This document shows positions 3,643-38,849 of a stretch of 39,089 bases of DNA, piece after piece. Position 1 is the stretch's first letter. Each line of letters begins with the position of its first letter. The DNA comes from Erysipelotrichaceae bacterium (GTDB lineage Bacteria > Bacillota_I > Bacilli_A > Erysipelotrichales > Coprobacillaceae), in contig JAJQFG010000134.1 of the NCBI GenBank assembly GCA_021201315.1, positions 1 to 39,089 on the forward strand, written 5' to 3'. Below the pieces are notes generated by a model that had not been told where the DNA came from, did no database searches, and saw only the letters and a program-made list of their open reading frames with translations. A program made the translations under genes and the position numbers.

Positions 3643-3645
3643 TTT

Positions 3646-5611: not shown

Positions 5612-5937
5612 TAAAGGAATTTGTATGTTTTTTAAAGGAATCAAAGAAAAATCAGTTGATTGCAGTTATGTTTATATTAGGAGTACTGCTTTATAATTTT
5701 GGCATTATGCCAGTGTTTGCAGAGGATGATCCACTTGAAGTGGTTAATAATCTATCAGATTTTGTATTCAGTCTTATTAGAGCAATTGGTATGATACTTC
5801 TAGGATTTGGCATTGTTCAGGTTGGTTTAAGCTTAAAGAGTCATGATGCCTCACAGAGAGCCAATGGGTTTATGACTGTAGCTGGAGGAATTATTATTAC
5901 ATTTGCAAAGGAAATACTGAATCTTATAGTTGGATAG
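5608..5937 (+). CDS. Maff2-type small membrane protein of the T4SS
   Basis: 109 aa. A basic N terminus is followed by a hydrophobic helix (about 17-36) ending near VFAEDD, which reads like a cleavable or anchor signal. Two more hydrophobic stretches follow (LIRAIGMILLGFGIVQVGL and the glycine-rich VAGGIIITFAKEIL). The order coupling protein, this protein, TrbL-like protein and the fold pattern fit the Maff2 family of Clostridium-type conjugative elements, a likely VirB2-like channel or pilin part. Start ATG overlaps the VirD4 stop. Confidence 0.7.
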   Translation: MIKEFVCFLKESKKNQLIAVMFILGVLLYNFGIMPVFAEDDPLEVVNNLSDFVFSLIRAIGMILLGFGIVQVGLSLKSHDASQRANGFMTVAGGIIITFAKEILNLIVG

Positions 5938-5950
5938 GAGGTGATTCAGC

Positions 5951-6781: not shown

Positions 6782-6799
6782 AAAATGATTTTATACATT

Positions 6800-6827
6800 T
6801 TTGTTATAACAGTTATCATGATATAAT
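6800..6827 (+). promoter_or_regulatory. Promoter of the antitoxin gene
   Basis: TTGTTA (6801-6806) and TATAAT (6822-6827) are 15 bp apart; shifting the -35 by one base gives TTTGTT with 16. The sequence is AT-rich and lies between the VirB6-like gene and the antitoxin, giving the antitoxin its own transcription. Confidence 0.5.
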
Positions 6828-6854
6828 GATGATATTAAAAAGGAGCTGATAGAG

Positions 6855-7097
6855 ATGCCTGTAATGAAAGACATGGACAATTTAAATAGTATTGATGAAA
6901 TATCTGATTTTGTCCATGAAAACAAAGAGCCTGTTTTTATCATAAAAGATGATGATTGTGAATTTGTTGTAATGAGCTATGAATGCTATGATGATTTAAT
7001 GAAGGTAGAATCTATTGATCAGGCTATATTTGAATCTGAAATGGGTATTCTAAATGGACAGGAACCAATGGATGCAAAAAAGTTTTTCATGATATAG
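6855..7097 (+). CDS. Phd/YefM-family antitoxin, interrupted by frameshift
   Basis: 80 aa: MPVMKDMDNLNSIDEISDFV, then EPVFIIKD...EFVVMSYECYDDLM, the N-terminal DNA-binding fold of Phd/YefM antitoxins. No toxin gene is next to it. The frame ends early in DAKKFFMI. In the -1 frame the sequence continues DAKKVFHDIDNRVKI, which resembles the normal family C terminus, and then runs on without a stop into the frame starting at 7121 (joined product 152 aa). The shift point is GCA AAA AAG (7074-7082), the same phase as the E. coli dnaX slippery site. It may be a lost A (A6 instead of A7), a sequencing error or programmed slippage. Confidence 0.7.
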   Translation: MPVMKDMDNLNSIDEISDFVHENKEPVFIIKDDDCEFVVMSYECYDDLMKVESIDQAIFESEMGILNGQEPMDAKKFFMI

Positions 7098-7120
7098 ATA
7101 ATCGTGTAAAAATAAGAAAA

Positions 7121-7312
7121 ATGATTTTTGATGGAATAACATATAATGTTTTAACCGATGATGAATTAAATGAACTCATAGATGAGATTAAGCTTAAGAC
7201 TGAACTGGAAATTCAGCATAAAAGACTTTTAAATGGTGAAATAACAACAATGGATTTTGATGATTTTACACAAAAGCATAAGCTAAAATATAAAAAGCGT
7301 GAACAGGACTGA
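7121..7312 (+). CDS. 63-aa acidic protein, probably the shifted-frame continuation of the antitoxin
   Basis: I recognise no domain. The sequence is charged (LTDDELNELIDEIKLKTEL) and ends KYKKREQD. No proper ribosome site precedes the ATG. The frame is open upstream through the antitoxin's -1 frame (VFHDIDNRVKIRK then MIFDG), so it is best seen as the C-terminal half of a longer antitoxin-like protein, or as a protein reached by reinitiation 23 nt after the antitoxin stop. Confidence 0.45.
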   Translation: MIFDGITYNVLTDDELNELIDEIKLKTELEIQHKRLLNGEITTMDFDDFTQKHKLKYKKREQD

Positions 7313-7336
7313 ATCAAACGATCAGTCCTTTGTTTA
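7305..7336 (+). terminator. Hairpin over the end of the 63-aa frame
   Basis: AGGACTGA (7305-7312) pairs with TCAGTCCT (7322-7329), followed by TTGTTTA. The stop codon lies in the left arm. It is a weak terminator by its tail and may only partly separate the antitoxin transcript from the following T4SS genes. Confidence 0.5.
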
Positions 7337-7361
7337 TGTCTAAGAAAATGGAGGAATTGAA

Positions 7362-7751
7362 ATGGAAGTAAAAATTAATAAGGAAATAAGAGATTATACA
7401 GAAAGCATGTTTTTAGGTCTGACCCTAAGACAATGCTTTTTTTCTGTCCTTGCATGTATAACAGCTGTTGGACTTTATTTTTTATGTATTGATTATCTTG
7501 GTAATGAGCTTACAAGCTGGGTGTGCATGATATCTGCTGTACCTTTTGCAGCTTTAGGCTTTGTAAGATATCAGGGTATGAATGCAGAACAGATTGCTGT
7601 TAGTTTTATAAGATCGTTTCTGTTAAAGAATACAGAACTGATTGAAAAGCCATATAATTTCTATTATGAGCTTATGAAGGAAAAACAAAGACGGGAGGAG
7701 CGTGAGCGAAAGCATGATAAAAAGCTACGAAAGATTAAAAAAGCAGAATAA
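7362..7751 (+). CDS. PrgI-family (VirB3-like) T4SS membrane protein
   Basis: 129 aa. It starts MEVKINKEIRDYTESMFLGL, has paired membrane helices (about 25-42 and 51-68), and ends in a basic tail (KQRREERERKHDKKLRKIKK). PrgI family proteins precede the VirB4 ATPase in Gram-positive conjugation loci, and that order is kept here. GGAGG lies before the ATG. The 3' end overlaps the VirB4 frame by 50 nt. Confidence 0.8.
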   Translation: MEVKINKEIRDYTESMFLGLTLRQCFFSVLACITAVGLYFLCIDYLGNELTSWVCMISAVPFAALGFVRYQGMNAEQIAVSFIRSFLLKNTELIEKPYNFYYELMKEKQRREERERKHDKKLRKIKKAE

Positions 7752-10038
7752 GGATAAATTCTCTGTTCCAAGAACTGCTCAGGATATCATTGATATAGAT
7801 ACCATCTACAAGGATGGTATCTTTTGCTCTGGCAAGAAGTTTTCTAAAAGCTATAAGTTCAAGGATATTAACTATGCCATAGCTTCAAAAGAGGAAAAGG
7901 AAGGATCGTTTTTAAACTACAGTGAACTTCTTAATTCACTGGATAGTTCTGTTATTACTAAAATAACTATTAATAATCATAAGATAGACCTTAAATCCTT
8001 CAAGGAAAAGATACTGATACCTATGAAAGATGATGGAATGAATGACATGCGTGAGGAATACAACAATATTCTTTTGGATAACCTTGCCAATATTGATGGC
8101 ATGACCCAGGAAAAGTATATAACAATTACAGCATTCAAGGATTCTATTGATGAAGCAAGAAACTTCTTTGCCCGTACAACTGTTGAATTATCAGCTCACT
8201 TTGCAAAGCTTGGTTCTGAACTTGAGGAACTTGATGCAACAGAACGATTAAAGATATTACATGATTTCTATAGAAATGGCGAAGAGGAGCAGTTTATGTT
8301 CGATATGGAAGATTCAATGAGAAAGGGACATCACTTCAAGGATGCTATATGTCCATATTATCCAGTATTTAAGGATAAGTATTTTAAGCTTGGTGATAAG
8401 TATGGAAGAGTATTGTATCTATCTGAGTATGCAAGATATATCAAGGACAGCTTTATTGCAGAGTTGTGTTCATTAAACAAGAATCTTATGTATTCACTGG
8501 ATATTATTACAGTACCTACAGATGAGGCAGTTGGAGAAGTAGAAAAAGTATCATTAGGTGTTGATACCAATATTGCCAACTGGCAGATGAGACAGAACTC
8601 CAACAACAACTTCAGTGCTGCTATTCCTTATGATATGGAAATGCAGAGAAAGGAGTGCAAGGAGTTTCTTGATGATTTAACAGTTAGAGATCAGCGTATG
8701 ATGTTTGGATGTATTACAATCGTTCATCTTGCTGATTCATTGGAGGAGCTTGATAACGATACGGAAGTGTTAATGAGTACTGCCAGAAAATATATGTGCA
8801 AGCTTTCTATTCTTTATGGAGCAAGCCGTCAGCTTGATGGATTATCAACAGTATTACCTATTGGTACAAATAAGCTTGGCATTGTTAGGACATTGTTGAC
8901 TGAAAGCCTTGCAGTATTTATTCCATTCAGAGCACAGGAAATCATGGAAGAGGGTGGCTACTGGTATGGCCAGAATGCCATTACAAACAATCTTATTATG
9001 CTGAACAAGGAATCATTACTGAATCCTAATGGCATGAATCTGGGTGTCCCAGGTTCAGGCAAATCCATGATAACAAAGCTTCAGGTCTATGCAATAGGAC
9101 TTAGAGGTGAGGATGACATTATAATATGCGATCCTGAAGGTGAATATACGCCCCTTGTTCAAAGACTAGGTGGCGAGGTTATACAGATTGCAGCAGGAAG
9201 CAGGAATCATATCAATGCAATGGATATGAGTGAAGGCTATGGTGACAGTGGCAATCCAGTTGGTGATAAGAGCCAGTTTATTATGTCACTGTTTGAGCAA
9301 TTGGATAGAGAAGGTATTAAACCTATTGATAGAAGTATTATTGACAGATGTGTTACACAGGTCTATCAGGAAAGCTATGAAAACAATGAAATACCAACAT
9401 TAATGACATTAAGACGTAAATTGTTGGAACAGCCTGAAATGGAAGCAAGAAGTCTTGCATTAAAGCTTGAACTGTTTACTGAAGGTTCGCTCGATGTTTT
9501 TGCTCATAAGACTAATGTCAATACTAATAGCCGTATTATCTCCTATGATATCTTTAAGCTTGGTAAGCAGCTAAAGACAATAGGATTATTAGTTATTACA
9601 GATGCCATGATTAATCGTGTCAATGAAAACTGGAAGAGAGGCAAAAGAACACATATCATCATTGATGAGTTTCATGTGGTATTCTCCAATGAGGAAAGTG
9701 CAAGCTTCTTTAATTCAGCATGGAGACAGTTTAGAAAGCGTGATGGCTATCCGGTTGGTGTTACACAGAATGTTGAATATCTTTTAGATAGTGTAGAAGC
9801 GAGTACAATGTTATCAAACAGTGAATGTGTTGTTATGCTTAATCAGGCCTACCAGGATAGAGAAAAGCTTGCAACATTACTAAATATCAGTGATGAGCAG
9901 TTAAGCTATATTACCAATGCACAGCCTGGATGTGGTCTTATCAAGTATGGTGGAAGTATAGTTCCTTTTGTATGCAGAATACCAAAGAATACTGATTTGT
10001 ATAAAACAATTACCACAAAACCGGCAGATAGAAAATAA
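7702..10038 (+). CDS. VirB4-like conjugative transfer ATPase
   Basis: 778 aa. N-terminal VirB4 region, then Walker A GVPGSGKS (about 447-455), followed by IIICDPEGEYTPLV, and Walker B THIIIDEFHVVF (about 650-660). It powers assembly of the type IV channel at the membrane. The start is either GTG 7702, only 3 nt after GGGAGG, or ATG 7714, 15 nt after it; both lie inside PrgI, so translation is coupled. Length and motifs are complete. Confidence 0.92.
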   Translation: MSESMIKSYERLKKQNKDKFSVPRTAQDIIDIDTIYKDGIFCSGKKFSKSYKFKDINYAIASKEEKEGSFLNYSELLNSLDSSVITKITINNHKIDLKSFKEKILIPMKDDGMNDMREEYNNILLDNLANIDGMTQEKYITITAFKDSIDEARNFFARTTVELSAHFAKLGSELEELDATERLKILHDFYRNGEEEQFMFDMEDSMRKGHHFKDAICPYYPVFKDKYFKLGDKYGRVLYLSEYARYIKDSFIAELCSLNKNLMYSLDIITVPTDEAVGEVEKVSLGVDTNIANWQMRQNSNNNFSAAIPYDMEMQRKECKEFLDDLTVRDQRMMFGCITIVHLADSLEELDNDTEVLMSTARKYMCKLSILYGASRQLDGLSTVLPIGTNKLGIVRTLLTESLAVFIPFRAQEIMEEGGYWYGQNAITNNLIMLNKESLLNPNGMNLGVPGSGKSMITKLQVYAIGLRGEDDIIICDPEGEYTPLVQRLGGEVIQIAAGSRNHINAMDMSEGYGDSGNPVGDKSQFIMSLFEQLDREGIKPIDRSIIDRCVTQVYQESYENNEIPTLMTLRRKLLEQPEMEARSLALKLELFTEGSLDVFAHKTNVNTNSRIISYDIFKLGKQLKTIGLLVITDAMINRVNENWKRGKRTHIIIDEFHVVFSNEESASFFNSAWRQFRKRDGYPVGVTQNVEYLLDSVEASTMLSNSECVVMLNQAYQDREKLATLLNISDEQLSYITNAQPGCGLIKYGGSIVPFVCRIPKNTDLYKTITTKPADRK

Positions 10039-10063
10039 TTGAAAGTAAAGGAGAAATAAGAAT

Positions 10064-10819
10064 ATGGAAAAACAGTTACCAATGATCAAGGAAGAACCTG
10101 TAGTCATGGAATATATGAATATGTTATATAAGAATAACAATAAGAAGGAATTTGATAATACTCAGGAGCTTCTTGATTATATTTCATCAATGGAAAAGCA
10201 GTTTGAGCAAGTAGTCAATGAACTTCAGGATGTTAAGCAGATGCTCAATGAAATGCAAAATCCTACAATAAAGATGCGTATGTCAGATGCTATTGATAAA
10301 ACACAGATGGCCGTTGATGATGGTATAGGAAGACTTAATAATGTTAAGACTGATCTCATTGATTCAATGAAGGACTGCCTTGAATCAGTTAAGCAAAAAG
10401 GCAAGGAAGGTGTTGTTAAAACTATCAACCTTCTTCATTTTAAGGATGCTTTAAATGGTATAGGAAAGGTGTTATCCTATGGCATGGAAAAGACTTCAAA
10501 TGCTATTGTGACCTTTGACAGTATTTCAATGGAAGCTAGAAATACTAAGCTTCATATAGGAAACATTGGAAGAATCATGATGGGAAAGGAACCGAAGGAA
10601 AATGATTATTATATGTATTCCGATAAAAAGAATAAGGTTCAATGTGGTTTAAGAATCATCTATAACCGTCTTGAGGGTATGCAGGTCAAAACATCCAGTA
10701 TAGTCAAAAGTATTAAGAATTTTGAGAAATCATCAGTGAAGGCTGATATTAAAACCTTTAAGAGTAAAAATACAAATATCATCAAGGATACAAAGCAAAA
10801 AACGGAACAGTCACGCTAG
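10064..10819 (+). CDS. Coiled-coil protein of the conjugation module
   Basis: 251 aa, no membrane segment, mostly predicted helix with a coiled-coil stretch (about 30-75, LLDYISSMEKQFEQVVNELQ). The middle holds LLHFKDALNGIGKVLSYGM. It resembles the DUF6674-type proteins often found after VirB4 in clostridial ICEs, but I hold that family name loosely. AAAGGAG precedes the ATG. A strong hairpin with the TAG stop in its loop ends the gene. Confidence 0.55.
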   Translation: MEKQLPMIKEEPVVMEYMNMLYKNNNKKEFDNTQELLDYISSMEKQFEQVVNELQDVKQMLNEMQNPTIKMRMSDAIDKTQMAVDDGIGRLNNVKTDLIDSMKDCLESVKQKGKEGVVKTINLLHFKDALNGIGKVLSYGMEKTSNAIVTFDSISMEARNTKLHIGNIGRIMMGKEPKENDYYMYSDKKNKVQCGLRIIYNRLEGMQVKTSSIVKSIKNFEKSSVKADIKTFKSKNTNIIKDTKQKTEQSR

Positions 10820-10833
10820 TGGCTGTTCTTTGT
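10805..10833 (+). terminator. Hairpin with a stop codon in its loop
   Basis: GAACAGTCAC and GTGGCTGTTC (10 bp, one G-U) close a GCTA loop, with the stop codon TAG at 10817-10819, followed by TTTGTTGCTTTA. It may attenuate transcription into the hydrolase gene or protect the 3' end of the upstream message. Confidence 0.5.
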
Positions 10834-10861
10834 TGCTTTATATATAGAAAAGAGGATTTTT

Positions 10862-12592
10862 ATGAATAAGACTATAAAGACTAAGAAATCCGTACGCAAT
10901 ATCAAGACCATTAACAGGAGAAGCAATCTTAGGCATTACATCAGAAAGAAACAGATTTCTAATCTAAGAGTAAAAGACATTAATAATAACCAGTCCACCA
11001 ATGAAATCAATGATACCAATGCTACAAATAATACAGTCGGCACTATAACAAATGCCCAAAAGATTGCTGCAGTTAATACAGCAATACAGGCTAAGAAGAT
11101 AATCATAAATAAACGGAATAGAAATAATTCCAGTAAGTATGATACAGAATATAATGCTGATGATAAGACTGTTATAGATGATAATGATTATCATTATGAT
11201 AATAGTGAATACAGTTATGCTGATACAAATACAAACGATGCCCAATCATATAACCATAAATCATATATAGAAAAAAAGATGAATAAAAGAATCGGCAAAA
11301 CTGATTATAAGGATGTTAAGTATATTATTGAAAATACTGATATTGAAGATATAAAAGCTGAAAATAATTATCAAAGCACAAGAATAAAGCAAAAGCCTGA
11401 GAACTTTACATCAACAGGTAATAGCTATGATGAAACCGAAAGAATATCCCTGAGTGAGATTATGCACAGGTATTCAATAAATAAATACCAGAAAAAGCTG
11501 AAGGAACAGAATAGCAATATAAATAGCTCTCAGGTCAGTAATAAGAGCAGTTTATCTCCAAAAAATATTCTTAATAATTCCTATACTTATATTAAAAGAA
11601 AGGTTACTGATGGTACAAATTTGTTTGTATATGGTGGTGGCTTAATCATACTGGTTCTTATAACATTGTTTATTGGAATGTTTTCATCTTTATCAAGTGA
11701 TTCTGGTACAGATACATCAACGCTTAATCTAAGTGAAGAAGTTTTAGCTTATACAACAGTTATTCAGGCATATGCCATTGAATATGGCATTGAGGATTAT
11801 GTACCTTTGATACAGGCAGTGATGATGCAGGAATCAGGAGGCCAGGGTGATGATCCTATGCAGTCATCAGCATGTGGTTATAATAAGGAATATCCTGATG
11901 GTATAACTAATGCAGATTATTCTATTGACTGTGGTGTTCATTATCTATCAGATTGCATTGTAAAAGCTAATGTTGAAAGCACTACAGATATGGAACATAT
12001 TAAGTTAGCACTTCAGGGTTATAACTTTGGAAGTGGTTATATAACATGGGCTGTTACTAACTTTGGTGGCTATACAGCTTCAAATGCAAAAGTATATTCA
12101 GACCAGAAGAAAAGCGAGCTTAATACATCAGTCTATGGTGATGTTGATTATGTAGAGCATGTTTTACGGTATTATCATTTAGGTGGAAATCTTGTAGAAA
12201 TAGCCATAACACAGATAGGTAATACTGGTAATGTTTACTGGGAGTGGTATGGATTTTCTTCAAGAGTTGAATGGTGTGCATGTTTTGTATCGTGGTGTGC
12301 TAATGAAAGTGGTTGTTTGAATGTTACGGTGCCAAAGTTTTCAGGTGTTGAAGAAGGTATTTCATGGTATAAAAACAATAGCAGATGGCAGGATAGCAGT
12401 TATACTCCAAATGTATGTGATTTGATATTTTTTGATTGGAATAGTGATAATGATCCTGATCATGTTGGAATTGTTGAAAAAATTGAAGATGGATATATTT
12501 ATACAATTGAAGGCAATTCTAGTGATGAGGTCAAGGAAAGAAAATATCAGTTAGGATATATCAGAATATATGGGTATGGAGTTGTACAATAA
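10862..12592 (+). CDS. VirB1-like bifunctional cell-wall hydrolase (lysozyme-like + CHAP)
   Basis: 576 aa. Residues 1-250 are basic, asparagine-rich and of low complexity, presumably cytoplasmic. One membrane helix follows (about 256-276, GLIILVLITLFIGMF). A lysozyme-like domain (about 290-430) carries MMQESGG with the likely catalytic Glu. A C-terminal CHAP domain (about 445-576) has Cys in WCACFVSW (about 470) and His in DPDHVGIVE (about 531). Such enzymes open peptidoglycan for the conjugation channel, as in CwlT of ICEBs1. It is the last recognisable conjugation gene. The topoisomerase and relaxase genes usual further on are missing. Confidence 0.87.
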   Translation: MNKTIKTKKSVRNIKTINRRSNLRHYIRKKQISNLRVKDINNNQSTNEINDTNATNNTVGTITNAQKIAAVNTAIQAKKIIINKRNRNNSSKYDTEYNADDKTVIDDNDYHYDNSEYSYADTNTNDAQSYNHKSYIEKKMNKRIGKTDYKDVKYIIENTDIEDIKAENNYQSTRIKQKPENFTSTGNSYDETERISLSEIMHRYSINKYQKKLKEQNSNINSSQVSNKSSLSPKNILNNSYTYIKRKVTDGTNLFVYGGGLIILVLITLFIGMFSSLSSDSGTDTSTLNLSEEVLAYTTVIQAYAIEYGIEDYVPLIQAVMMQESGGQGDDPMQSSACGYNKEYPDGITNADYSIDCGVHYLSDCIVKANVESTTDMEHIKLALQGYNFGSGYITWAVTNFGGYTASNAKVYSDQKKSELNTSVYGDVDYVEHVLRYYHLGGNLVEIAITQIGNTGNVYWEWYGFSSRVEWCACFVSWCANESGCLNVTVPKFSGVEEGISWYKNNSRWQDSSYTPNVCDLIFFDWNSDNDPDHVGIVEKIEDGYIYTIEGNSSDEVKERKYQLGYIRIYGYGVVQ

Positions 12593-28586: not shown

Positions 28587-28648
28587 ATAAATTAGAGGAA
28601 TCTATTATTTTAGGTTGATATGGTTAAATATGAAAGGAAGTGACAATT

Positions 28649-29026
28649 ATGGTTAAAATTGGTGAAAGAATTAAATATTTAAGAAAGAAAAAGAATCTAA
28701 CACAGACTCAACTAGGTGTATTATTAGGATTTAAAGAAAATGGTGCTGCTGTTAGGGTTGCTCAATATGAGAATGATAGAAAAATGCCAAGAAGTGATAT
28801 TATCGAAAAGTTGTTATTTATATTTGATATCAATGAAAATGTATTGTTAAGTAATACGGATGATGAGCTTATAAATATTTGTATTGATATGTATTGGCGA
28901 GGAATACAAGGCAAAGATATTATGCTTGTATATAAATTCTTTGAATTATTTAAGGAATATAATGAGGAAAGATATAACCAATTTAATACAATAATAAAAA
29001 GGCATATTTTAACCAATTTTGTTTAA
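28649..29026 (+). CDS. XRE-family transcriptional regulator
   Basis: 125 aa from ATG 28649, 8 nt after AAGGAAG; a GTG at 28640 is in frame but overlaps that site. N-terminal helix-turn-helix (about 1-65): IGERIKYLRKKKNLTQTQLG, then QYENDRKMPRSDIIEKL. The C-terminal 60 residues are acidic and helical with no known domain. It lies directly before the invertible recombinase segment, and similar inverted repeats mark both promoters, so it may control the switch. Confidence 0.85.
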   Translation: MVKIGERIKYLRKKKNLTQTQLGVLLGFKENGAAVRVAQYENDRKMPRSDIIEKLLFIFDINENVLLSNTDDELINICIDMYWRGIQGKDIMLVYKFFELFKEYNEERYNQFNTIIKRHILTNFV

Positions 29027-29058: not shown

Positions 29059-29094
29059 GAAAAAATAAACTATGCAAAAGATTACAAGAATCTT
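29059..29094. other. Left recombination core site and outer flank
   Basis: AAGATTACAAGAATCTT (29078-29094) has 6-bp inverted arms around a 5-bp spacer (ACAAG), the layout of a tyrosine-recombinase core. The same arms with the reverse-complement spacer (CTTGT) lie at 30227-30243. The outer flank, read leftwards, gives GTTTATT followed by T6, able to pair with AATAAGC at the recombinase 3' end if the segment is inverted. Confidence 0.7.
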
Positions 29095-29102
29095 CGACAC
29101 AC

Positions 29103-29131
29103 ATACTACCATATTTTTTTACATTTGAAAA
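29103..29131 (-). promoter_or_regulatory. Possible outward promoter inside the invertible segment
   Basis: On the minus strand TTTTCA (29131-29126), 17 bp, TAGTAT (29108-29103). Each box matches 4 of 6 consensus bases. It faces left, out of the segment, and would point at the polysaccharide genes after inversion. Speculative. Confidence 0.3.
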
Positions 29132-29145
29132 GAAAAAAGTTAAAA

Positions 29146-29170
29146 TTCGCACAAGTTTTATAATTGCGAA
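29146..29170 (+). promoter_or_regulatory. Recombinase -10 box within a TTCGCA/TGCGAA inverted repeat
   Basis: TATAAT (29159-29164) lies between TTCGCA (29146-29151) and TGCGAA (29165-29170). No good -35 box is seen, which fits a promoter needing an activator. The half-sites resemble those at the XRE promoter. Confidence 0.45.
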
Positions 29171-29277
29171 CTAGTTAACGAAATTAAGTATAGATAAAAA
29201 TTACATTAATCTTGAATATATCTAAAATAATGTGATTTCAAGTGATTTAATTAGTAGGTGGAAAGGAGGAAAAGATT

Positions 29278-30219
29278 ATGCAGGAAAAAGATAAGAAATT
29301 TAATCTTGTATCACAGGAATGGCTTAAATATAAAAAACTGGAAGTAAAGATATCAACTTACGTTAAATACGAAAAGATCATTAAATGCCATTTAAATGAT
29401 TTATACCAGGATAAAAATATTGATGAATTAGATGCATATGATTATCGTGATTACTTTACAAAGCTTAAAGAAGATAATCAATTATCACCTAGTATGCTTA
29501 ATTCTATTAGAACTGTATTAAAAGGTATATTAGAATATGCTGAGGAACGATATAACATTGAACATGTTGATTTATCACGTATTAAACTATCTCGTTCAAA
29601 AACAGTTGCAACAGTATTATCCGATGATGAATTTGAAAAATTATCCCAATATTGTGAAGAAAACATTAATATTTATACTGTTCCAAGTTATTTAAGCTTA
29701 TATAGTGGTATGAGATTAGGTGAAATATGTGGCTTAAAATGGCAAGATATTGATGTTGTCAATGGTGTTATCTATGTCAGAAGAACTGTTGAAAGACTTG
29801 AAGATGAAGATAATCCAGATTCAAAAACAACTCTAATGCTATTAGAGCCAAAAACAGAATCATCTAAAAGAGAAGTAACTATTGTTAATTTTCTATGCAA
29901 GTATTTATTGATGTACAAACAGTTATGTGATGGTCAGGATACTGATTATATTGTTACAAACAATGATAAGATACCAGATCCTACTACAGTTGAAAGAAGA
30001 CACAAGCGATTGTGTCTTTTACTGAATATTAGCAACTATAAGTTTCATACTTTAAGACATACATTTGCTACAGAATGTGTTAAACAGGAAGTTGATTATA
30101 AAGTGTTGTGTGAAACATTAGGGCATTCAGATGTTTCAATCACATTAAATGTTTATGTACATCCTAGTCGTGAATTTAAGAAAGAACAGATTGATAAAAT
30201 TTCGAAAAAGAAGAAATAA
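29278..30219 (+). CDS. Tyrosine recombinase (putative DNA invertase)
   Basis: 313 aa. N-terminal SAM-like core-binding domain (about 10-95). The catalytic domain has R146 in SGMRLGEICGLKW, H257 and R260 in HTLRHTF, H283 in LGHSD and nucleophile Y293 in LNVYVHP. Phage- and ICE-type integrases usually have an extra N-terminal arm-binding domain; none is seen, so this is closer to XerC/D-like or inversion recombinases. GGAAAGGAGG precedes the ATG. The gene lies between two inverted core sites 1.13 kb apart, directly before the polysaccharide operon. Confidence 0.92.
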   Translation: MQEKDKKFNLVSQEWLKYKKLEVKISTYVKYEKIIKCHLNDLYQDKNIDELDAYDYRDYFTKLKEDNQLSPSMLNSIRTVLKGILEYAEERYNIEHVDLSRIKLSRSKTVATVLSDDEFEKLSQYCEENINIYTVPSYLSLYSGMRLGEICGLKWQDIDVVNGVIYVRRTVERLEDEDNPDSKTTLMLLEPKTESSKREVTIVNFLCKYLLMYKQLCDGQDTDYIVTNNDKIPDPTTVERRHKRLCLLLNISNYKFHTLRHTFATECVKQEVDYKVLCETLGHSDVSITLNVYVHPSREFKKEQIDKISKKKK

Positions 30220-30262
30220 GCCGCATAAGATTCTTGTAATCTTCTGAAGCTTATTATTTTTT
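30215..30262 (+). terminator. Recombinase terminator containing the right recombination site
   Basis: Outer arms AATAAGC (30215-30221, including the stop) and GCTTATT (30249-30255), inner arms AAGATT and AATCTT with spacer CTTGT, then T7. The inner part (30227-30243) is the right core site, inverted relative to 29078-29094. Crossing over in the spacer would separate the two terminator arms. Confidence 0.7.
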
Positions 30263-30309
30263 TGCTTATTAAACTCAACTGCTCTTTTTCATGGGCAAAA
30301 AAATAATAA
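30251..30309. repeat. 15-bp inverted repeat beside the right site
   Basis: TTATTATTTTTTTGC (30251-30265) and GCAAAAAAATAATAA (30295-30309) are perfect complements around a 29-nt loop. The left arm is also the T-run of the recombinase terminator. Role unclear; it could be an added stop signal or a protein site. Confidence 0.5.
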
Positions 30310-30530
30310 CAAACATTTAATCATAGCTATTTTATTATAAAAAGACTGTAAACCATTAAGAAAGGATAAGTCTTCTATATTTTTAGGTAAAAATGTCGCA
30401 GAACCAAAAGTTCGATGGATAAAAATTAAATAGAATAACTTGATTGTTTTATTTTGTCTATGCAATTCGCAGAGCAGAAAAGAAATGCAGAGTATGGTAT
30501 ATATGATGGTGTCCACATATATAGAGTGTT
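30310..30530. promoter_or_regulatory. Polysaccharide leader region with weak promoter
   Basis: No convincing gene. An extended -10 box TGGTATATA (30495-30503) lacks a clear -35. A lone TTCGCA half-site lies at 30466-30471. A minus-strand frame of 82 codons (30289-30537) looks non-coding or degenerate. A transcript from here would start about 20 nt before the leader terminator. Confidence 0.35.
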
Positions 30531-30531
30531 T

Positions 30532-30595
30532 GAACATAGTTTATTTGTCCGATATGTATGTACCTATTGGATAGATAAACTATGTTCTTTTTTTT
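30532..30595 (+). terminator. Leader terminator directly before the polysaccharide operon
   Basis: GAACATAGTTTAT (30532-30544) pairs perfectly with ATAAACTATGTTC (30575-30587), 13 bp, followed by eight T. The loop is 30 nt. The ribosome site of the first gene starts 6 nt after the T-run, so there is no room for a promoter after it. Expression of the operon must read through, which points to antitermination or attenuation. Confidence 0.88.
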
Positions 30596-30612
30596 ATTGA
30601 AGGGGGAGGAGA

Positions 30613-31410
30613 TTGAAGTTGGAAGCATATGTGGATGATATAAGAAACACTAGTGATGAAGTTAATAATTGTGCATTCTGTGGTAAACAGATTCAATATA
30701 AACCTAATGTTTCCACAGATTTTAAAGTGAATAAGTATCATTTATGTAGAGAGTGTTATGAGGAGTTTTATAGTAAGGATGATGTTAAGCCTTTTTATTA
30801 TGTGTTTTTAAAAAGGTTTATAGATATTTTGGGAGGACTTGTAGGATGTTGTTTTGTTGTTGTCTTTGTCATTGTTATTAAGATAGCTTATATGCTTGAT
30901 GGTGATTTTGATTCAGTATTCTTTGTACAAAGTCGAATTGGCAAAGATGGCAAGATATATAAGATGTATAAGTTCAGGTCTATGGTACCTAATGCAGAAG
31001 ATGTATTAAGTAAACTTATGATGGATGATGAGGATATCAGAAATGAGTATCTTACCAATAAAAAGCTTGAGAATGATCCTAGAATAACAAGAATAGGGCA
31101 TTTTATCAGGAAGACTTCCATTGATGAATTTCCACAATTCATTAATGTATTAAAAGGAGAAATGTCGCTTGTTGGACCAAGGCCATATCTTATAAGGGAA
31201 ATAGAAGACATGGGTTTTGCATACAATGAAATTATTAAAGTAAAACCTGGTATTACAGGACCTTGGCAAACCGGAGGACGTAGTGATATACCATTTAATG
31301 AGAGAGTAAAGATAGAAGCAAGATATCCTAGAGAAGCATCGCTTATTGGAGATATAAAAATATTATTTAAGACAGTCAGTTCTGTTTTGCTCTCAAAGGG
31401 GGCTATCTAA
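30613..31410 (+). CDS. Polyprenyl-phosphate sugar-1-P transferase with N-terminal zinc-ribbon
   Basis: 265 aa from TTG 30613, 4-6 nt after GGGGGAGGA. Residues 20-48 hold C20-x2-C23 and C45-x2-C48, a probable zinc ribbon not usual in this family. A membrane segment follows (about 68-95). The catalytic part has KFRSMVPNAE, KTSIDEFPQF and LVGPRPYL, the signature of bacterial sugar transferases (WbaP/PglC/EpsL type) that start polysaccharide units on undecaprenyl phosphate at the membrane. It is first in the operon, as expected. Confidence 0.9.
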   Translation: MKLEAYVDDIRNTSDEVNNCAFCGKQIQYKPNVSTDFKVNKYHLCRECYEEFYSKDDVKPFYYVFLKRFIDILGGLVGCCFVVVFVIVIKIAYMLDGDFDSVFFVQSRIGKDGKIYKMYKFRSMVPNAEDVLSKLMMDDEDIRNEYLTNKKLENDPRITRIGHFIRKTSIDEFPQFINVLKGEMSLVGPRPYLIREIEDMGFAYNEIIKVKPGITGPWQTGGRSDIPFNERVKIEARYPREASLIGDIKILFKTVSSVLLSKGAI

Positions 31411-31430
31411 AATGAAGTCGAGTTTTTTTT

Positions 31431-32264
31431 ATGTGTAATCATTATAACCAATTATTATTAGATAAAGTTGAAATTCTTAATGGTATTGGAAACCCTTTGA
31501 TTTCTATTATAACTCCTTCTTTTAATAGTGAAAAATATATTACTGATACAATAGAATCAGTATTAAATCAATCATTTAAGAACTTTGAAATGATAATTGT
31601 GGATGATTGTTCATCAGATTCAACCTGTAAAATTGTAGAGAGCTATATGAATACTGATGATAGAATAAAATTGTATAAATTAGAGAATAATTCTGGAGCA
31701 GCTGTTGCAAGAAATACTGCTTTAGATATATCAAAAGGACGTTTTATTGCATATCTTGATGCTGATGATATTTGGAAGAAAGATAAGTTAGAAAAACAAG
31801 TAAGTTTTATGTTATCCACAGATATAGCTTTTTCTTGTACATCTTACGAAGTGATAGATGATTTAGGTAAGGATTTAGAAAAAGAGATACATATGCTTAT
31901 CAAGGTTGATTATGAATCTTTTTTGAAAAACAATTTATTACAAACTGTAGGAATAATGGTTGATACAAGTAAAATAGATAAATCGTTATTAAAAATGCCA
32001 TTAATCAGAAGACGACAAGATGCGGCTACTTGGTTACAAATTTTAAAAGCAGGATATCCCTGTTATGGGTTGGATTTGATTTTGGCTCAATATAGAAGAA
32101 CTGATAATTCTTTATCAAGTAATAAAATTAAAGCTATTAAGGGAATATGGTACTTATATAGAAAAATAGAAAATTTATCTTTAATGTTTAGTTGCTATTG
32201 TTTTGTAAGATATGCATTTTTAGCAATTTGGAAAAGAATTTATTTCAAGAGGTATCAAAAATGA
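31431..32264 (+). CDS. Family 2 glycosyltransferase
   Basis: 277 aa. PLISIITPSFNSEKYI, then IIVDDCSSDST, NNSGAAVARNTAL and the DxD in AYLDADDIW are all GT2 (GT-A fold) motifs. It adds a sugar to the lipid-linked unit at the inner face of the membrane. There is no clear ribosome site; ATG 31431 follows a T-rich stretch and a frame opening at GTG is possible. A terminator follows within the operon. Confidence 0.85.
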   Translation: MCNHYNQLLLDKVEILNGIGNPLISIITPSFNSEKYITDTIESVLNQSFKNFEMIIVDDCSSDSTCKIVESYMNTDDRIKLYKLENNSGAAVARNTALDISKGRFIAYLDADDIWKKDKLEKQVSFMLSTDIAFSCTSYEVIDDLGKDLEKEIHMLIKVDYESFLKNNLLQTVGIMVDTSKIDKSLLKMPLIRRRQDAATWLQILKAGYPCYGLDLILAQYRRTDNSLSSNKIKAIKGIWYLYRKIENLSLMFSCYCFVRYAFLAIWKRIYFKRYQK

Positions 32265-32274
32265 GAATCCCTAT

Positions 32275-32294
32275 GCCTTAAAAGGCTTTTTTTA
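32275..32294 (+). terminator. Internal terminator in the polysaccharide operon
   Basis: GCCTT/AAGGC around two A, followed by seven T. Short stem, so probably leaky. It would give the first two genes higher expression than the rest. Confidence 0.6.
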
Positions 32295-32401
32295 TCTCCA
32301 ATAGATTGTTTTAAGGAGGCTAGAAGATATATTGGAAGTAAAACAATGAGTTAATTCTTAAATAATTATTTATTATATAAAATTGTGGAGGTTTTTGAAC
32401 A

Positions 32402-33871
32402 GTGAAAGAATTAAGAATTGTCAGAACACTATTAGATGAAATGAACAATGATATTAGATACTGTCATTGGAAAAGCAATCAACATTTTTCTGACGCATTA
32501 TTAGGTATAGACGATTTAGATATATTAATAGATAGAACTCAATATCTTGAATTACTAAATATTTTAAATAAGCTAGAGTTTAAACATTTTTATACGCCTA
32601 GTGAACGTACTTATGTAGGTATTGAAGATTATTTAGGTTTTGATTATGAGACAGGAAAAATTATACATCTTCATTTACATAGTCAGCTAGTTATAGGAGA
32701 AAAACATTTAAAGGGATTTCAGGTTCCTTTTGAAGAAAAAATATTAAAAAATCGTAGATGGGATAGTGAATATAATGCTTATTTATCATCAGAATATGAT
32801 GAATTGTTGTTATTAATAATACGTCTTGGTATGAAAGCTAGATTACGTGATTGTTTTAAAAAGGTTTCTGCTGAAAAAAATACAGCTTATGAATTTTGTT
32901 GGTTAAAAGAACGATGTCCTGATTTTTGTAATATATTAGATGAAGAGGATTCTTTGTCGAATAGATTAAAGATATTAATAAAAAAAACATATACAAATGG
33001 ATTCACTTGGTCAACTTCTTATAAGATAAAACGATGTCTCTATAAAGAATGGTTATGTTATTCACAGGGGAGTGGTTTATACAATTCGATTAAGCGACAT
33101 AAGCGTGAATTTCAGAGAATTATATCGGAAATAAAGAAGAGATATCTTCATACTAAAAACTCATTTCTTAGAAGAAGATCAGCGACCGGAGGAATATTAA
33201 TTGCATTTTTGGGATCTGATGGAGCAGGGAAAAGTTCTACTATCAAAGAAATTCATAAATGGCTTATCAAAGTAGTAGATGTTCGTTGTTTTTATTTAGG
33301 TAGTGGTGATGGCGATAGTTCGTTACTTCGAGCACCATTAAAAATTTTAAAAGTTTTAGCACAAAAACTAGGAATATTAAAAATCACTAATAATTTTAAT
33401 GATGCTAATTTGCATGAGAAGAATAAAACAAATAAGACAATTGGTCTGGCTAGAAAGGTTTGGATATATACTCTCTCTAGAGAAAGAATCAAGAAATTAG
33501 TTTCTGCAAGAAGGTGTAGAACAAGAGGATATGTAGTTATAACCGATAGATATCCTCAAAGCGAATTTTCTGGACTCTGTGATGGACCAAAATTAAATAA
33601 TCAAAAAGGATTGTGTGCAAGTAAAGAGGCTGAATCATTTAGAATAGCAAAACTTTCTCCTCCAGATTTGGCTATAAAATTAATTGTCTCACCTGAAGTA
33701 GCTCAATCAAGAAAACCAGGTGAAATTGATTTGGAAACTAGTAAAAATCTAACTGAGAGAATACAAATGATTCAGTTTTCAGAACAAACGAAAATTGTTG
33801 AAATTGATGCTAATCAATCCCAGGAGGAAGTTATTTTAAATGTAAAAAAAGCCATATGGCAAAATATTTAG
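32402..33871 (+). CDS. Two-domain protein: nucleotidyltransferase-like and thymidylate-kinase-like
   Basis: 489 aa from GTG 32402, after GGAGG. The N-terminal half has YCHWKSN and GIDDLDILIDR, like the GxxDxD core of the nucleotidyltransferase fold. The C-terminal part begins with a P-loop FLGSDGAGKSS (about 267-278) and continues with DRYPQSEF, the kinase DRY-type motif, and a late LIVSPEVAQSRK. Proteins of this type recur in polysaccharide loci, but no reaction is known to me. It might phosphorylate a sugar, nucleotide or lipid. Confidence 0.65.
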   Translation: MKELRIVRTLLDEMNNDIRYCHWKSNQHFSDALLGIDDLDILIDRTQYLELLNILNKLEFKHFYTPSERTYVGIEDYLGFDYETGKIIHLHLHSQLVIGEKHLKGFQVPFEEKILKNRRWDSEYNAYLSSEYDELLLLIIRLGMKARLRDCFKKVSAEKNTAYEFCWLKERCPDFCNILDEEDSLSNRLKILIKKTYTNGFTWSTSYKIKRCLYKEWLCYSQGSGLYNSIKRHKREFQRIISEIKKRYLHTKNSFLRRRSATGGILIAFLGSDGAGKSSTIKEIHKWLIKVVDVRCFYLGSGDGDSSLLRAPLKILKVLAQKLGILKITNNFNDANLHEKNKTNKTIGLARKVWIYTLSRERIKKLVSARRCRTRGYVVITDRYPQSEFSGLCDGPKLNNQKGLCASKEAESFRIAKLSPPDLAIKLIVSPEVAQSRKPGEIDLETSKNLTERIQMIQFSEQTKIVEIDANQSQEEVILNVKKAIWQNI

Positions 33872-33884
33872 AGGAGATGTGTGT

Positions 33885-34966
33885 GTGAAAATTGCTTTTA
33901 TTTCTTCAGGAAATTCAATACATGTAAAAAAAATAGCTAATCAATTAGTAGAATGGGGACATGATATTACATTGTATACATTACCTGATTACAATAAATT
34001 ACTTTCTGATTTTGACAAAAGAGTTAAAATTGTAAAATTACCATTTTCTGGTAAAAAAGGATATTACTTAAATGTTCCATATTTAAAAAAAGAAATTGAA
34101 AATGGAAAATATGATCTTGTTAATAGTCATTATGCATCTGGTTTTGGTACTATGGCTAGACTTACTGGTATTCATCCAATGGCGCTTGCAGTCTTTGGAG
34201 CTGATGTTTATGATTATCCATTTAAATCAAAAAGCAATATGAAAAGGGTTATTAAAAATCTTGAAAATGCTGACGTAATTACTTCTACAAGCCACGTTAT
34301 GGCAAAAAAGGTAAGAGAGTATTATCACGAAGATAAACCCATTATAGTAACCCCCTTTGGGGTTGATTTAAATATATTTTATCCTAGAGTTGTAGATAAA
34401 GATGATTATTTTGAATTTGGGATTGTAAAAAAATCGAAAAAAAATACGGGATTGATATTTTATTAAAAGCATATAAGAAATTTAAGGAACTACAGCCTGA
34501 TGTTAAATCTAGACTTGTAATTTATGGAAGAGGAACAGCATTAGATGAGTATAAGTTATTAGCAGATTCGTTAGGGTTGGATTCAGAAATGATATTTAAA
34601 GGATTTATAAAAAACGAATTAGTCCCTGAAGTATTATCTCATATGGATGTCGCATGTTTTCCTAGTATACTAGATAGTGAAAGTTTTGGGGTTGCTGCTG
34701 TCGAGGCAATGGCTTGTGGTACGCCTGTTATAGCCTCTGATGCTTCGGGTTTTACAGAGGTGATTGAAGATAATATAACAGGTATAGTAATTCCTAAGAA
34801 TTCTGTTGATGCTTTATGTGAAGCAATGATGAAAATGTATTCATTATCAAAAAAAGATAGAGAAAATATGGGTGTGGCTGGAATAAAAAGAGTTCATGAA
34901 TTATATAATTTCGAAAATAATATGAAAACTTATGTTGAGGCAATTAGTAATGCAGTTAGAAAGTAA
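33885..34966 (+). pseudogene. Family 4 glycosyltransferase, frameshifted at an A7 tract
   Basis: Two frames make one GT4 protein of about 360 aa. The first, from GTG 33885 (8 nt after GAGGAG), has KIAFISSGNSIHVKK and SHYASGFGTMARL and ends at 34466. The second, open after the break and carrying 34577-34966, has ESFGVAAVEAMACGTPVIA, the E-x7-E motif of GT4. The break is at A7 34427-34433: with A8 the frame reads IVKKIEKKYGID, as expected for the family. A second tract (A8, 34437-34444) could also be the site. Phase variation, decay and sequencing error are all possible. Confidence 0.82.
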
Positions 34967-35627
34967 AAACATAACTGAATATTGTGGAATATCTGGTGTA
35001 GGGAAATCAACTCTTTTAAGAGCTGATTTTTATTATAAACAGAAAAAAGGAAAAGATTGTGCTTGGCCAAGAAAATCTCTTTATGAAGATAAATCATGGT
35101 TTTATAGAAATATATTAAAAGCTTTTGGAGTAGTGAAACAGATAATACTACATCCGAAATGGTTTAGGAAAGTTTTAAAAATTTTGAGTAATTATAAATT
35201 AAGCAATAAGGATTTTTTCCAACTTCTTTTTAATTATTTATCTCTAAAAAATACAATGGAAAAATGTAATTCAAAAAAATATGAATATTTATTTGACGAA
35301 GGCGTTATTCAGATTATATGGGCAACTTACATGCGTAGTAATATTCAATTTTCGAATGAAAATTGTAAATGTATATTTGATTTGTTTTCACCTCCCAAAA
35401 AAATAATATTTGTAGATGCACCAACAGAAATTATTGTAGAGAGGCTAAAAGAACGTGGTAGAAATACTAGGATTTTACAATTTCAGGATTTAAAATCAGA
35501 AATAGATTATATGAGGATAATTTTAAATAGGATATTAGAATGTGCAATTAAAATACAATATATAGATGCTAATTCTATAATAAAAATTACGAATACTAAA
35601 GAAATTGATGGAGAAAAATATGATTAA
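34950..35627 (+). CDS. P-loop kinase-like protein of the polysaccharide locus
   Basis: 225 aa from ATG 34950, which overlaps the end of the glycosyltransferase gene; GAGG lies 9 nt before. The P-loop is GISGVGKST at about 13-21. Late motifs KIIFVDAPTEIIVERLKERG and RNTR look like the LID region of small-molecule kinases. The substrate is unknown. It is the second kinase-like gene in this locus and is followed without a gap by the acetyltransferase. Confidence 0.6.
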   Translation: MQLESKNITEYCGISGVGKSTLLRADFYYKQKKGKDCAWPRKSLYEDKSWFYRNILKAFGVVKQIILHPKWFRKVLKILSNYKLSNKDFFQLLFNYLSLKNTMEKCNSKKYEYLFDEGVIQIIWATYMRSNIQFSNENCKCIFDLFSPPKKIIFVDAPTEIIVERLKERGRNTRILQFQDLKSEIDYMRIILNRILECAIKIQYIDANSIIKITNTKEIDGEKYD

Positions 35628-36178
35628 AACAAAGGATGATCTTAAATTATATCTTGAACAAGATAAAGAACAATTAGGAAAAACATATTCTAAACCACAT
35701 GTATTTGGTGATGAAATTTGGAAATTTCAGATTTACTTAAGGAAATTAGAATATTACACAAATTCTTCTGTCGGGGGGGGGGATAATACACATTATAATG
35801 AAAAAATATTTTTCTTTTAAGAAACATTATTTAGGTATTAAATTAGGTTTTACTATCCCAATCAATGTATTTGGTCCTGGTTTAAATATCCATCATTATG
35901 GATATATTGTTGTCAATGCTCATGTAAGAGTAGGTGAAAATTGTAATATTCAGCAAGGTGTAAATATAGGACAGAACTATGGGAAAGATAATTGTCCTAT
36001 TATTGGAAATAATATTTATATTGGACCTGGTGCTAAAATATTTGGAAAAGTAACAATCGCTGATAATATTGCAATAGGTGCAAATGCAGTAGTAACACAT
36101 TCTTTTTATGAAGAAGGTATAACTATTGCAGGATGTCCAGCCAAAAAAATTGGAGTAAGAAAATTTGAAGAGATATAA
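35620..36178 (+). pseudogene. Serine-acetyltransferase-like O-acetyltransferase, out of frame at a G10 tract
   Basis: The first frame starts at ATG 35620 (MIKTKDDLKLYLEQDKEQLG, 6 nt after GGAG) and reaches LEYYTNSSVGGG, then stops at 35820. The second frame (KKYFSFKKHYLGIKLGFTIP) carries left-handed beta-helix hexapeptide repeats, HHYGYIVV and IAGCPAKKIG, to 36178. The tract is G10 at 35773-35782; G9 would join the frames as VGGGIIHIIMKKYFSF, giving about 185 aa. The protein would O-acetylate the polysaccharide. A G10 tract in so AT-rich a gene is the form of a phase-variable contingency tract, here OFF. Confidence 0.85.
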
Positions 36179-36216
36179 AAAGGTTAATTTTATTATTTGC
36201 TTTAGAAAGGAATGTT

Positions 36217-37396
36217 ATGAAATCAATATTGTCATCAAAAGGAATAGTATTGTTTATTCTTATGCTTATTGTTCCTTTTTTTAGTGGAAATTCACAGGAT
36301 ATTATATTTGGAATGATTTTTATAATGTCTTGTTATATATTTTGTATTGAATTACAAAAAAAAGATTTTAAAATTTCAAGTAAAAAAAATAATACAACAT
36401 TTAAAATACTAATCATTTCTAGTATATTTATTATTTATTCATTAATTAATATAGTAATCAATGGTGTATCTTATAATAGTATAGTTAGAATTGTTCAACT
36501 TTATACTTGCTTTTTTGTCCTTATAGCTTCTTCAATGTATAATTGGAAAAAAAGAGATAGATGTTGTTTTTTTATTAATAAAGATAGTGATTTTTGTATC
36601 TATGCTGTTATGGCCATTATCTGGATTTAAAATAAATTATTATAATGCATTATTTACTAGGGGTAATGCTTTAGGAGGAGCAATTTTTTGTTATTTTGGA
36701 ATATTTTTTAGCTTTAAAAGGAAATTTGATTTATCTGATAAATTAATAATAGTAATCGGATTCATACTACTATATTTTGCTAACAGTAGATCCAGCATGA
36801 TAGCGTTAATCGTTTTTTTGATTATCAGATTTTTTCTAATTAATTTCAAAAAAATCCCATATAAAAATATTTTTATGATTGCTTTATTAGTATGTTTAGC
36901 AGTTCCTATAGTTTATATGATTTTATATAATTCATCAATGAGAGAAGTACTTGATAATTTTTCCTGGATATATTTGAGAAAAAGATTCTTTTCTGGAAGG
37001 CAATATATATGGGGAGCACTTTTAAATTATATTTCTCAAAAACCATTTATGGGATATGGATTGGGAGTTACAGCTGATGATTTTTTAAGTTTAGGTTGGA
37101 GTAGTCACAATTGGTATCTTCAAACACTTTTACAAATAGGTATTATGGGCTTTTGTTTATTGGTGGAAGTTTTAAAAATTATTTGGAATGATTTATATAA
37201 GTATAAAGATTCAATAGTATGTAAAAGTGTTTCGGCATTTCTTATTGGGGTTCTTTTATGGCAATGTTTTGAAGTAACTATAACTCAAAATAATATATCA
37301 ATAGGTATTTTGGTATGGTTTATATTTGGATTGGGAGTAAACAAAAATTTATTAACTCAAAATAATAAACACTTTATGGGAGATTACCATGAATAA
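36217..37396 (+). pseudogene. Wzy-like polysaccharide polymerase, frameshifted at an A7 tract
   Basis: The first frame (36217-36630) gives hydrophobic segments such as GIVLFILMLIVPFFSGN and VQLYTCFFVLIASS, then non-membrane sequence and a stop. The second frame, open from before GTG 36587 to 37396, gives FGIFFSFKR, GFILLYFANSRSSMIALIVF and MGYGLGV..DDFLSLGWSSHN, as in O-antigen ligase/polymerase proteins. The break fits A7 36547-36553: with A6 the frame runs NWKKEIDVVFLLIKIVIFV. The repaired protein of about 390 aa has some ten helices, normal for Wzy. Confidence 0.8.
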
Positions 37397-38849
37397 AGAG
37401 AATAAACAAATTACAAAAAACTATATTTTCAATTCTATATATAAAATTTTAAATATTTGTATGCCATTGTTGACTGCACCTTATCTTTCAAGAGTTGTAG
37501 GTGCAGAATCATTAGGAACATATGCATATTATTATGCCATAGCACATTATTTTTATTTGATTGGTAAAATGGGATTAAATAATTACGGTACAAGACAAAT
37601 AGCAAAAACTCAAAATGAGGAAGAGCGTTATAAAACTTTTTCATCTATTTATTCACAACAGATAATAACTGCTGGATTGATGATTATTATTTATGCAATT
37701 TTTTGTATATCTCAGATTAAAGTAAATTTTGTCATACCGTTAATTTTAGGTATATATGTAATAGGTTGTTTATTAGATATTGACTGGTTATGGTGTGGAT
37801 TAGAAAAATTTAGCACAATTGCTATTAAAAACATTATAGTTAAAGTTTTAACTATAATTGGAATTTTTATATTTGTTAAGACAGCCGCTGACTTATGGAA
37901 ATATACAATGATAATGTCTTGTGGTATGTTATTGGGATTTATAACACTCTGGTTTGGTATTAGAAAATATATAAAATGGAGAAAGCCAAAATTATCTGAG
38001 GTTTTAGTACATTTAAAACCAAATTTAATTTTATTGTTTCCTATTTTAGCTAGTAATATTTATCGTTCAATGGATAAAATAATGGTTGGGCAAATCAGTG
38101 GAGCCGCCGAATTAGGATATTATGATAATGCAGAGAAAATTATTTATGCGATAAGTGGATTGATTACTGCTTTTACAAATGTAATGTTACCAAGATGTAC
38201 AAAGCTATTAGCAATTGGAAATAAACATAAATGTTATGAATATATTAAGATTGCAATAAATTTTTTATATTTTTTAATAGGTGGGATGGCATTTGGAATA
38301 TTTGCATTATCAGATAGAATAGTTATTTTGTTTTATGGAAATGGATATGTAAATAGTATTATTTTGCTTAGAATATTATCAGTTACAATTCTTATGATGA
38401 TATGGAGTGAGATTGTAAGGTCAATGTGGGTTATACCTAATGGAAAAGACAAGATTTATTTATGCACATTATCTGTAGGTGCAATTACCAATTTGATAGT
38501 TAATTTTATACTTATACCTTTATATGGAGCTAAAGGCGCTTCAGTAGCAACTATTGGTGCTGAGTTTATCGTTCCTTGTGTTCAATTTATATTTTTGCAT
38601 AGTGAATTGAATTATCGTAAGATGATAAGAAATACTGCCCCATATTTGATATCGGGATTATCGATGGTTTTTATTTTATTTACATTATCTAATAGTCTTG
38701 TAAATAATGTGTTGAATTTGCTAATACTCATTTTTGTAGGCGCATTTGTATATTTCTTAATTTCAATAGTTTTTGTTTATATTTTAAATAGAAGTTTATT
38801 TGAATATGGGAAAAAAACATTGAGTAATTATATAAGAAATAATAAGTGA
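37389..38849 (+). CDS. Wzx-type polysaccharide flippase
   Basis: 486 aa with about 12-14 membrane helices. The N terminus NYIFNSIYKILNICMPLLTAPYLSRVVGAESLG is split here only by family-typical spacing and is the Wzx/RfbX start. SNIYRSMDKIMVGQISG and ELGYYDNAEKI are characteristic. It moves lipid-linked units across the membrane for Wzy. Start overlaps the end of the wzy frame. Unlike its three neighbours it is unbroken, although it holds similar A and T runs. Confidence 0.9.
   Translation: MNKENKQITKNYIFNSIYKILNICMPLLTAPYLSRVVGAESLGTYAYYYAIAHYFYLIGKMGLNNYGTRQIAKTQNEEERYKTFSSIYSQQIITAGLMIIIYAIFCISQIKVNFVIPLILGIYVIGCLLDIDWLWCGLEKFSTIAIKNIIVKVLTIIGIFIFVKTAADLWKYTMIMSCGMLLGFITLWFGIRKYIKWRKPKLSEVLVHLKPNLILLFPILASNIYRSMDKIMVGQISGAAELGYYDNAEKIIYAISGLITAFTNVMLPRCTKLLAIGNKHKCYEYIKIAINFLYFLIGGMAFGIFALSDRIVILFYGNGYVNSIILLRILSVTILMMIWSEIVRSMWVIPNGKDKIYLCTLSVGAITNLIVNFILIPLYGAKGASVATIGAEFIVPCVQFIFLHSELNYRKMIRNTAPYLISGLSMVFILFTLSNSLVNNVLNLLILIFVGAFVYFLISIVFVYILNRSLFEYGKKTLSNYIRNNK

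Follow-up and report, generated by a model that had tools for sequence, protein, structure and literature searches.

The locus described here raises the question of what a recombinase gene does that is itself enclosed by two inverted copies of a short palindrome and stands in front of a polysaccharide operon. The window, i.e. the whole stretch of DNA that was analysed (39,089 nucleotides), corresponds to contig C7; C-numbers denote contigs of the same genome and L-numbers the loci that were compared with it. The answer that can be given with considerable confidence is that the 1.15-kb segment between the two palindromes is a self-contained phase-variation switch inverted by its own tyrosine recombinase, flipping within the strain being inferred and not observed.

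An earlier note on this DNA had described two 17-bp inverted palindromes flanking a tyrosine recombinase gene. Both are exact, lie where they had been placed (Table 1) and fall outside the range of a shuffle null: the ungapped inverted comparison of the two gene flanks gave a score of 17, whereas 300 shuffles averaged 10.4 and never exceeded 15. Exactly two matches to the pattern AAGATT-N5-AATCTT, mutual reverse complements, are present in the 39-kb window, and nine in the whole 3.0-Mb genome, seven of which are cassette sites. Between the two sites there is nothing but a 183-bp promoter region and one gene encoding a 313-aa tyrosine recombinase, and the resulting cassette of about 1.2 kb is located upstream of a capsule-type polysaccharide operon. 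Immediately 5' of the cassette lies a gene for an XRE-type regulator (28640-29026), relatives of which adjoin recombinases at C92, G002 and C93 and which is a possible switch regulator. An Rfam search of the region returned nothing but sub-threshold chance matches to microRNAs.

Table 1. Elements of the cassette and of the adjoining polysaccharide locus, in window coordinates.
Feature	Position	Strand	Remarks
Distal outer flank GTTTATT+T6, would complete the recombinase terminator after inversion	29060..29070	-	-18.2 kcal/mol joined to the gene end; locus-specific
Left recombination site AAGATT-ACAAG-AATCTT, extended promoter-side arm AATCTTCGAC	29078..29094	+	Exact inverted match to 30227-30243
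Outward extended -10 promoter TTTTCA-17-TAGTAT, TG 5' of -10; predicted start at the left-site edge	29103..29131	-	Conserved position
Tyrosine recombinase, 313 aa, within the putative invertible segment	29278..30219	+	Pfam Phage_integrase PF00589, E 7.2e-26
Recombinase terminator around the right site; inner half in the segment, outer half on the polysaccharide side	30215..30263	+	Fold -14.8 kcal/mol
Right recombination site AAGATT-CTTGT-AATCTT	30227..30243	+	Exact inverted partner of 29078-29094
Operon leader (about 370 bp), homologous in ON and OFF loci, conserved hairpin ~30497-30524	30244..30612	+	
Hairpin resembling an attenuator, GAACATAGTT...AACTATGTTC, with a T-run, 5' of the first gene of the operon	30532..30595	+	
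Polysaccharide operon: WbaP-like sugar transferase, glycosyltransferases, hexapeptide acetyltransferase, flippase; presumed target	30613..38849	+	

Pfam and PDB matches of the recombinase were exclusively to tyrosine recombinases, and the criterion of a serine recombinase fold or a catalytic serine was not met. The catalytic residues R146, K192, H257, R260, H283 and Y293 are invariant in an alignment with 11 homologs; catalysis of the inversion by this enzyme is an inference. Counting that of the window, the genome encodes five recombinases at an identity of at least 50%, and the paralogs at C95 and C39 share 74% and 69% identity, respectively, with the window recombinase. These two are flanked by inverted palindromes of their own, which have the same arms as those of the window and the centres ATAGA and ACGTG compared to ACAAG. 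At C73, both sites (centre ATGCG), the promoter and the apparent end of a recombinase reading frame are kept and the recombinase gene is lost, whereas at C92 and G002, beside similar operons, the sites are degenerate. The reduced cassette of C73 (L053, 14986-15296), cut down to the sites, the promoter and the recombinase tail, is in the ON order and has in its neighbourhood, after an LCP-type gene, a truncated recombinase with an internal stop.

The absence of such sites beside homologous recombinases had been named as a possible refutation of the switch; they were found in the paralogs as well as in related genera. Within the family, 14 clear homologous cassettes were identified in related genera, with pair scores of 17-32 (shuffles mostly 8-14) and recombinases that are mostly 40-50% identical. 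The layout is the same in paralogs and relatives, with one palindrome about 135-220 bp 5' of the recombinase and its inverted copy just past the stop codon. The site consensus including homologs reads GTCGYAGAWT-N5-AWTCTRCGAC, and GTCGYAGAAT-N5-ATTCTRCGAC in the other genera. The 5-bp centres, by contrast, are matched inside each pair and differ between loci (16 distinct centres in 17 loci). Six further recombinases with flanking inverted palindromes, whose arms are partly different, were found at the class level (34-42% identity); one has LoaP-like genes as neighbours and the rest have unrelated, partly surface-type genes. Homologs without site pairs (L091, L092, L097, L072 and C93 of the own genome) are surrounded by unrelated genes. 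As controls, 12 other recombinases of the own genome were scored; 10 of them, with scores of 9-12, were without a comparable pair, whereas L007 reached 17 and L018 a ragged 16. A Fisher test of inverted sites against LoaP or polysaccharide neighbours gave a p value of 0.0003, which is indicative at most, because the classes were assigned by the analyst, the species share ancestry and some bases of L094 are masked; the conservation counts take in related species and are not independent.

Some arrangements touch on this family without belonging to its core. At L007 (own contig C31, positions 1466 and 2483), a tyrosine recombinase of 32% identity is located between inverted copies of TTTAGTTAAAAACTAAA, a different site sequence, and may be another self-inverting cassette. 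A second repeat family with the palindrome CTGTCAAAAAGTATACTTTTTGACAG is present at L008, L011, L015 and L016 (own contigs C93, C103, C107 and C97). Its two copies, about 150-170 bp apart, lie directly 5' of another group of tyrosine recombinases, several of them beside surface-protein genes, and possibly represent a second type of inverton. At L095 (G008), an insertion apparently breaks a cassette, which is accompanied by a truncated duplicate of its recombinase.

Homologous loci occur in either orientation. In the assembly, the recombinase of the window and that of C39 are directed towards the polysaccharide genes (OFF), and at C95 and C73 the outward promoter is next to the homologous leader (ON). 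The leaders and inner regions of ON and OFF loci of the own genome align well. Among the relatives the majority is assembled OFF and three loci are assembled ON (L087, L088 and L204), so that the comparison of relatives proposed in the earlier note did reveal the opposite order at homologous cassettes with the same polysaccharide-side flank, and neither of the two refuting conditions named there was fulfilled. Since the two orders come from different loci and species, they indicate that both states are viable and recurrent and do not represent one locus caught flipping. In four closely related loci (L081-L084) the assembled order is OFF throughout; flipping may therefore be rare or biased. The previous assignment of the window to the OFF state fits the direction of the outward promoter, which does not face the operon, and the unbroken terminator that separates the recombinase gene from the operon. 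OFF is this simple in the present genome only and not a clean state in other genera, in which a clear terminator behind the recombinase is usually missing, and the recombinase in that order may therefore be co-transcribed with antiterminator genes.

The outward promoter lies where the earlier note had placed it (-35 at 29131-29126, -10 at 29108-29103 and TG at 29111-29110). Taken alone, the window promoter has a poor -35 and is not better than shuffled sequence (p about 0.2). As single-locus promoter scores are not significant in this genome, the conserved position across 21 cassettes was used as evidence. An extended -10 motif (TGnTAnnnT) faces outward in 20 of these, its end being separated from the 5-bp centre by 12-14 nt (by 14 nt in 16/21); the motif occurs once at other positions of these 80-bp stretches. 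From the fixed distance to the centre, the transcription start is predicted to fall on the inner site arm. In the own genome, the outward -35 overlaps an opposite-strand TTGAAAA that potentially serves the recombinase promoter, an overlap which suggests, by inference, that the two promoters compete.

The right site does lie inside the recombinase terminator, which is composed of AATAAGC (30215-30221), GCTTATT (30249-30255) and a T-run from position 30257. This terminator is modest in the window (z -2.0). That of C39, in the OFF order, forms a nearly perfect stem of 18 bp with a T-run behind it (-30.2 kcal/mol, z -6.7). At C95, in the ON order, the two halves are about 1.1 kb apart and, rejoined in silico, fold with -24.1 kcal/mol (z -6.0 versus shuffled flanks); halves that are still complementary though distant are to be expected if the segment reverts to the opposite order. 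The recurrent feature of this genome is a terminator that is split, yet complete in the OFF order. The left outer flank provides GTTTATT plus T6 on the minus strand (29070-29060), and the proposal that inversion would re-form a terminator is supported at the window locus, where the hairpin predicted for the inverted state is no less stable than the present one (-18.2 compared to -14.8 kcal/mol). It was rejected as a general rule, as the distal sides of C39 and C95 are without such a sequence. All folding energies are predictions.

The core motif of the leader that follows has five copies in the genome, all at cassette-bearing loci (window, C95, C39, C73 and C92). In other genera, the cassette stands before a pair of NusG/LoaP-like genes, after which come a leader containing a hairpin and an attenuator and then the polysaccharide operon; the attenuator-like element located after the LoaP-like genes resembles that of the window. 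The window leader has both hairpin and attenuator, its loop is not of the UNCG type (UCCG loops occur in several relatives) and its operon is without a local LoaP. The best homolog of the own genome, the orphan at C79, reached 83 bits with the LoaP model NF033641 (NCBIfam, cut-off 125 bits) and thereby stayed below the threshold; any dependence on LoaP is inferred. A solo motif, GTCG[CT]AGAA[CT]-N5-[AG]TTC, is present in the leaders of the window (30393-30412), C95, C39 and C73; it matches the site consensus of the other genera and is possibly a relict of an earlier cassette. Within the operon, a glycosyltransferase gene (33879-34966) is apparently split into the frames 33879-34466 and 34577-34966, a possible frameshift.

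These elements very probably act together as follows. The recombinase would bind the arms of about 10 bp of each palindrome, exchange strands in the 5-bp centre ACAAG and invert the segment of its own gene. Inversion and not deletion is to be expected, because the centres match only when the sites are antiparallel. In the inferred OFF state, the outward promoter would fire away from the operon and the recombinase transcript would stop at the terminator formed by its own 3' end and the polysaccharide-side flank. In the ON state, equally inferred, the outward promoter would abut this flank with the start at the site edge, the terminator would be deprived of its inner half and the polymerase would enter the leader. 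There, the attenuator would probably still require read-through by a LoaP-type antiterminator, a second checkpoint that C79 probably serves. Switching would be reversible, since the recombinase retains its own promoter in both orders. By inference, the private centres should prevent recombination between the several cassettes of one cell, and the shared arms might allow a single enzyme to act at more than one locus, the recombinase-less C73 among them.

Instead of being active switches, the cassettes might now be locked, i.e. relics of former switches that are retained as fixed promoters or terminators. Each locus is assembled in one order, C73 is without a recombinase, the sites of C92 and G002 are degenerate and the L063/L087 recombinase has an in-frame stop, all of which would fit. 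This reading is nevertheless unlikely. The intact catalytic residues and the matching, within pairs, of spacers that otherwise diverge between loci speak for ongoing exchange or selection, the split terminator of C95 is still complementary, and related recombinases of the same cell could act in trans on C73.

A mobile-element integrase with its attachment sites, or a transposon-like unit whose ends are marked by the palindromes, is a quite improbable explanation of the pair. The sites are inverted and not direct, their 5-bp centre differs at nearly every locus without target-site logic, and the cassette consists of a recombinase and promoters only, in a constant position before the leaders of surface-polysaccharide operons; on these grounds the palindromes were rejected as ends of a mobile element. 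The N-terminal SAM-like domain of the recombinase and its similarity to Int proteins would agree with such an origin, as would a conjugative-element-like gene set elsewhere in the window (2749-12592; VirD4-like, VirB4-like and a lysozyme/CHAP-type protein, judged from translations alone). No close relative was found in mobile DNA: the viral contigs searched contained recombinase relatives of at most 35% identity and two chance matches to the site pattern without a recombinase, and the plasmids searched gave one distant match alone. The search for species-level relatives among genome contigs returned a single distant match as well.

That the palindromes are mere terminator or regulator-binding elements, such as operators autoregulating the recombinase, without any inversion is very improbable. 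The right site is indeed part of a terminator stem and the left one abuts a promoter, but centres that match in inverted orientation and yet vary between loci would be left unexplained, as would the opposite orders.

The reading of the segment as a switch inverted by its own recombinase can be extended, with a slight preference and no more, to a class of self-inverting switches with a single gene each that is widespread in this clade of Bacillota and has not been named before. Its members would combine a tyrosine recombinase, private insulating centres, a promoter at a fixed distance from the site and, in this genus, a site that is at the same time a terminator stem; a single inversion would both turn the promoter and dismantle the terminator, ahead of a checkpoint that depends on an antiterminator. 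Capsule phase variation has been examined in depth in Bacteroides, but little is known of it from this branch of the gut Bacillota. If real, the switch would equip these commensals with several polysaccharide loci that flip independently of one another. It would also offer a compact module of enzyme and site, the centres of which are interchangeable, and a clear example of one DNA element serving as recombination site, promoter start and terminator stem. With the site consensus, existing long-read data can be searched for the class.

In Clostridioides difficile, the tyrosine recombinase RecV inverts regulatory segments (cwpV, flgB and cmr), including terminator-based switching, and the proposed system resembles it as tyrosine-recombinase inversion in Bacillota. 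RecV works in trans on several segments, and its gene is not known to lie inside any of them. In the open-access literature (subscription papers were not covered), no description was found of an inverton at a polysaccharide locus that contains the gene of its own tyrosine recombinase, which is not proof of novelty. A survey of invertons reported a median of zero per genome in Bacillus-like Firmicutes (PMC11892184).

The capsule invertible promoters of Bacteroides and other gut invertons are similar in that a promoter is flipped before polysaccharide operons, and the antiterminator genes that follow the cassette in relatives are NusG paralogs, as is UpxY of Bacteroides (PMC11892184). In those systems the invertase is normally encoded outside the segment (PMC11892184) or is a global one, such as Mpi (PMC5903667), and generally cannot be regulated by the inverton promoters (PMC11892184), whereas here every segment carries its own enzyme. 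The cps1 inverton of Akkermansia, which mediates capsule phase variation and has the inverted repeat CGGATT..AATCCG (PMC13343947), is similar to the window sites in the form of its half-sites; the phylum is different, a relation is not implied and no recombinase is described for this inverton in that paper. The LoaP of Bacillus velezensis (dfn) works via a leader hairpin and an intrinsic terminator (PMC12691694), and in the relatives the operon is likewise preceded by genes for NusG paralogs, by a hairpin in the leader and by an intrinsic terminator; the window operon differs in that it has no local LoaP, a C79 homolog below the cut-off and no UNCG loop.

The Hin/hix flagellar switch of Salmonella, cited as an example of a recombinase located within the invertible segment (PMC5903667), is comparable in that the recombinase gene and an outward promoter are inverted together. 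Hin is a serine recombinase; the present system has a tyrosine recombinase, sites with locus-private centres, several paralogous switches per genome, a polysaccharide operon as target and a site built into the recombinase terminator. As the enzyme class differs, the proposed switch would be Hin-like in its working but outside the Hin family.
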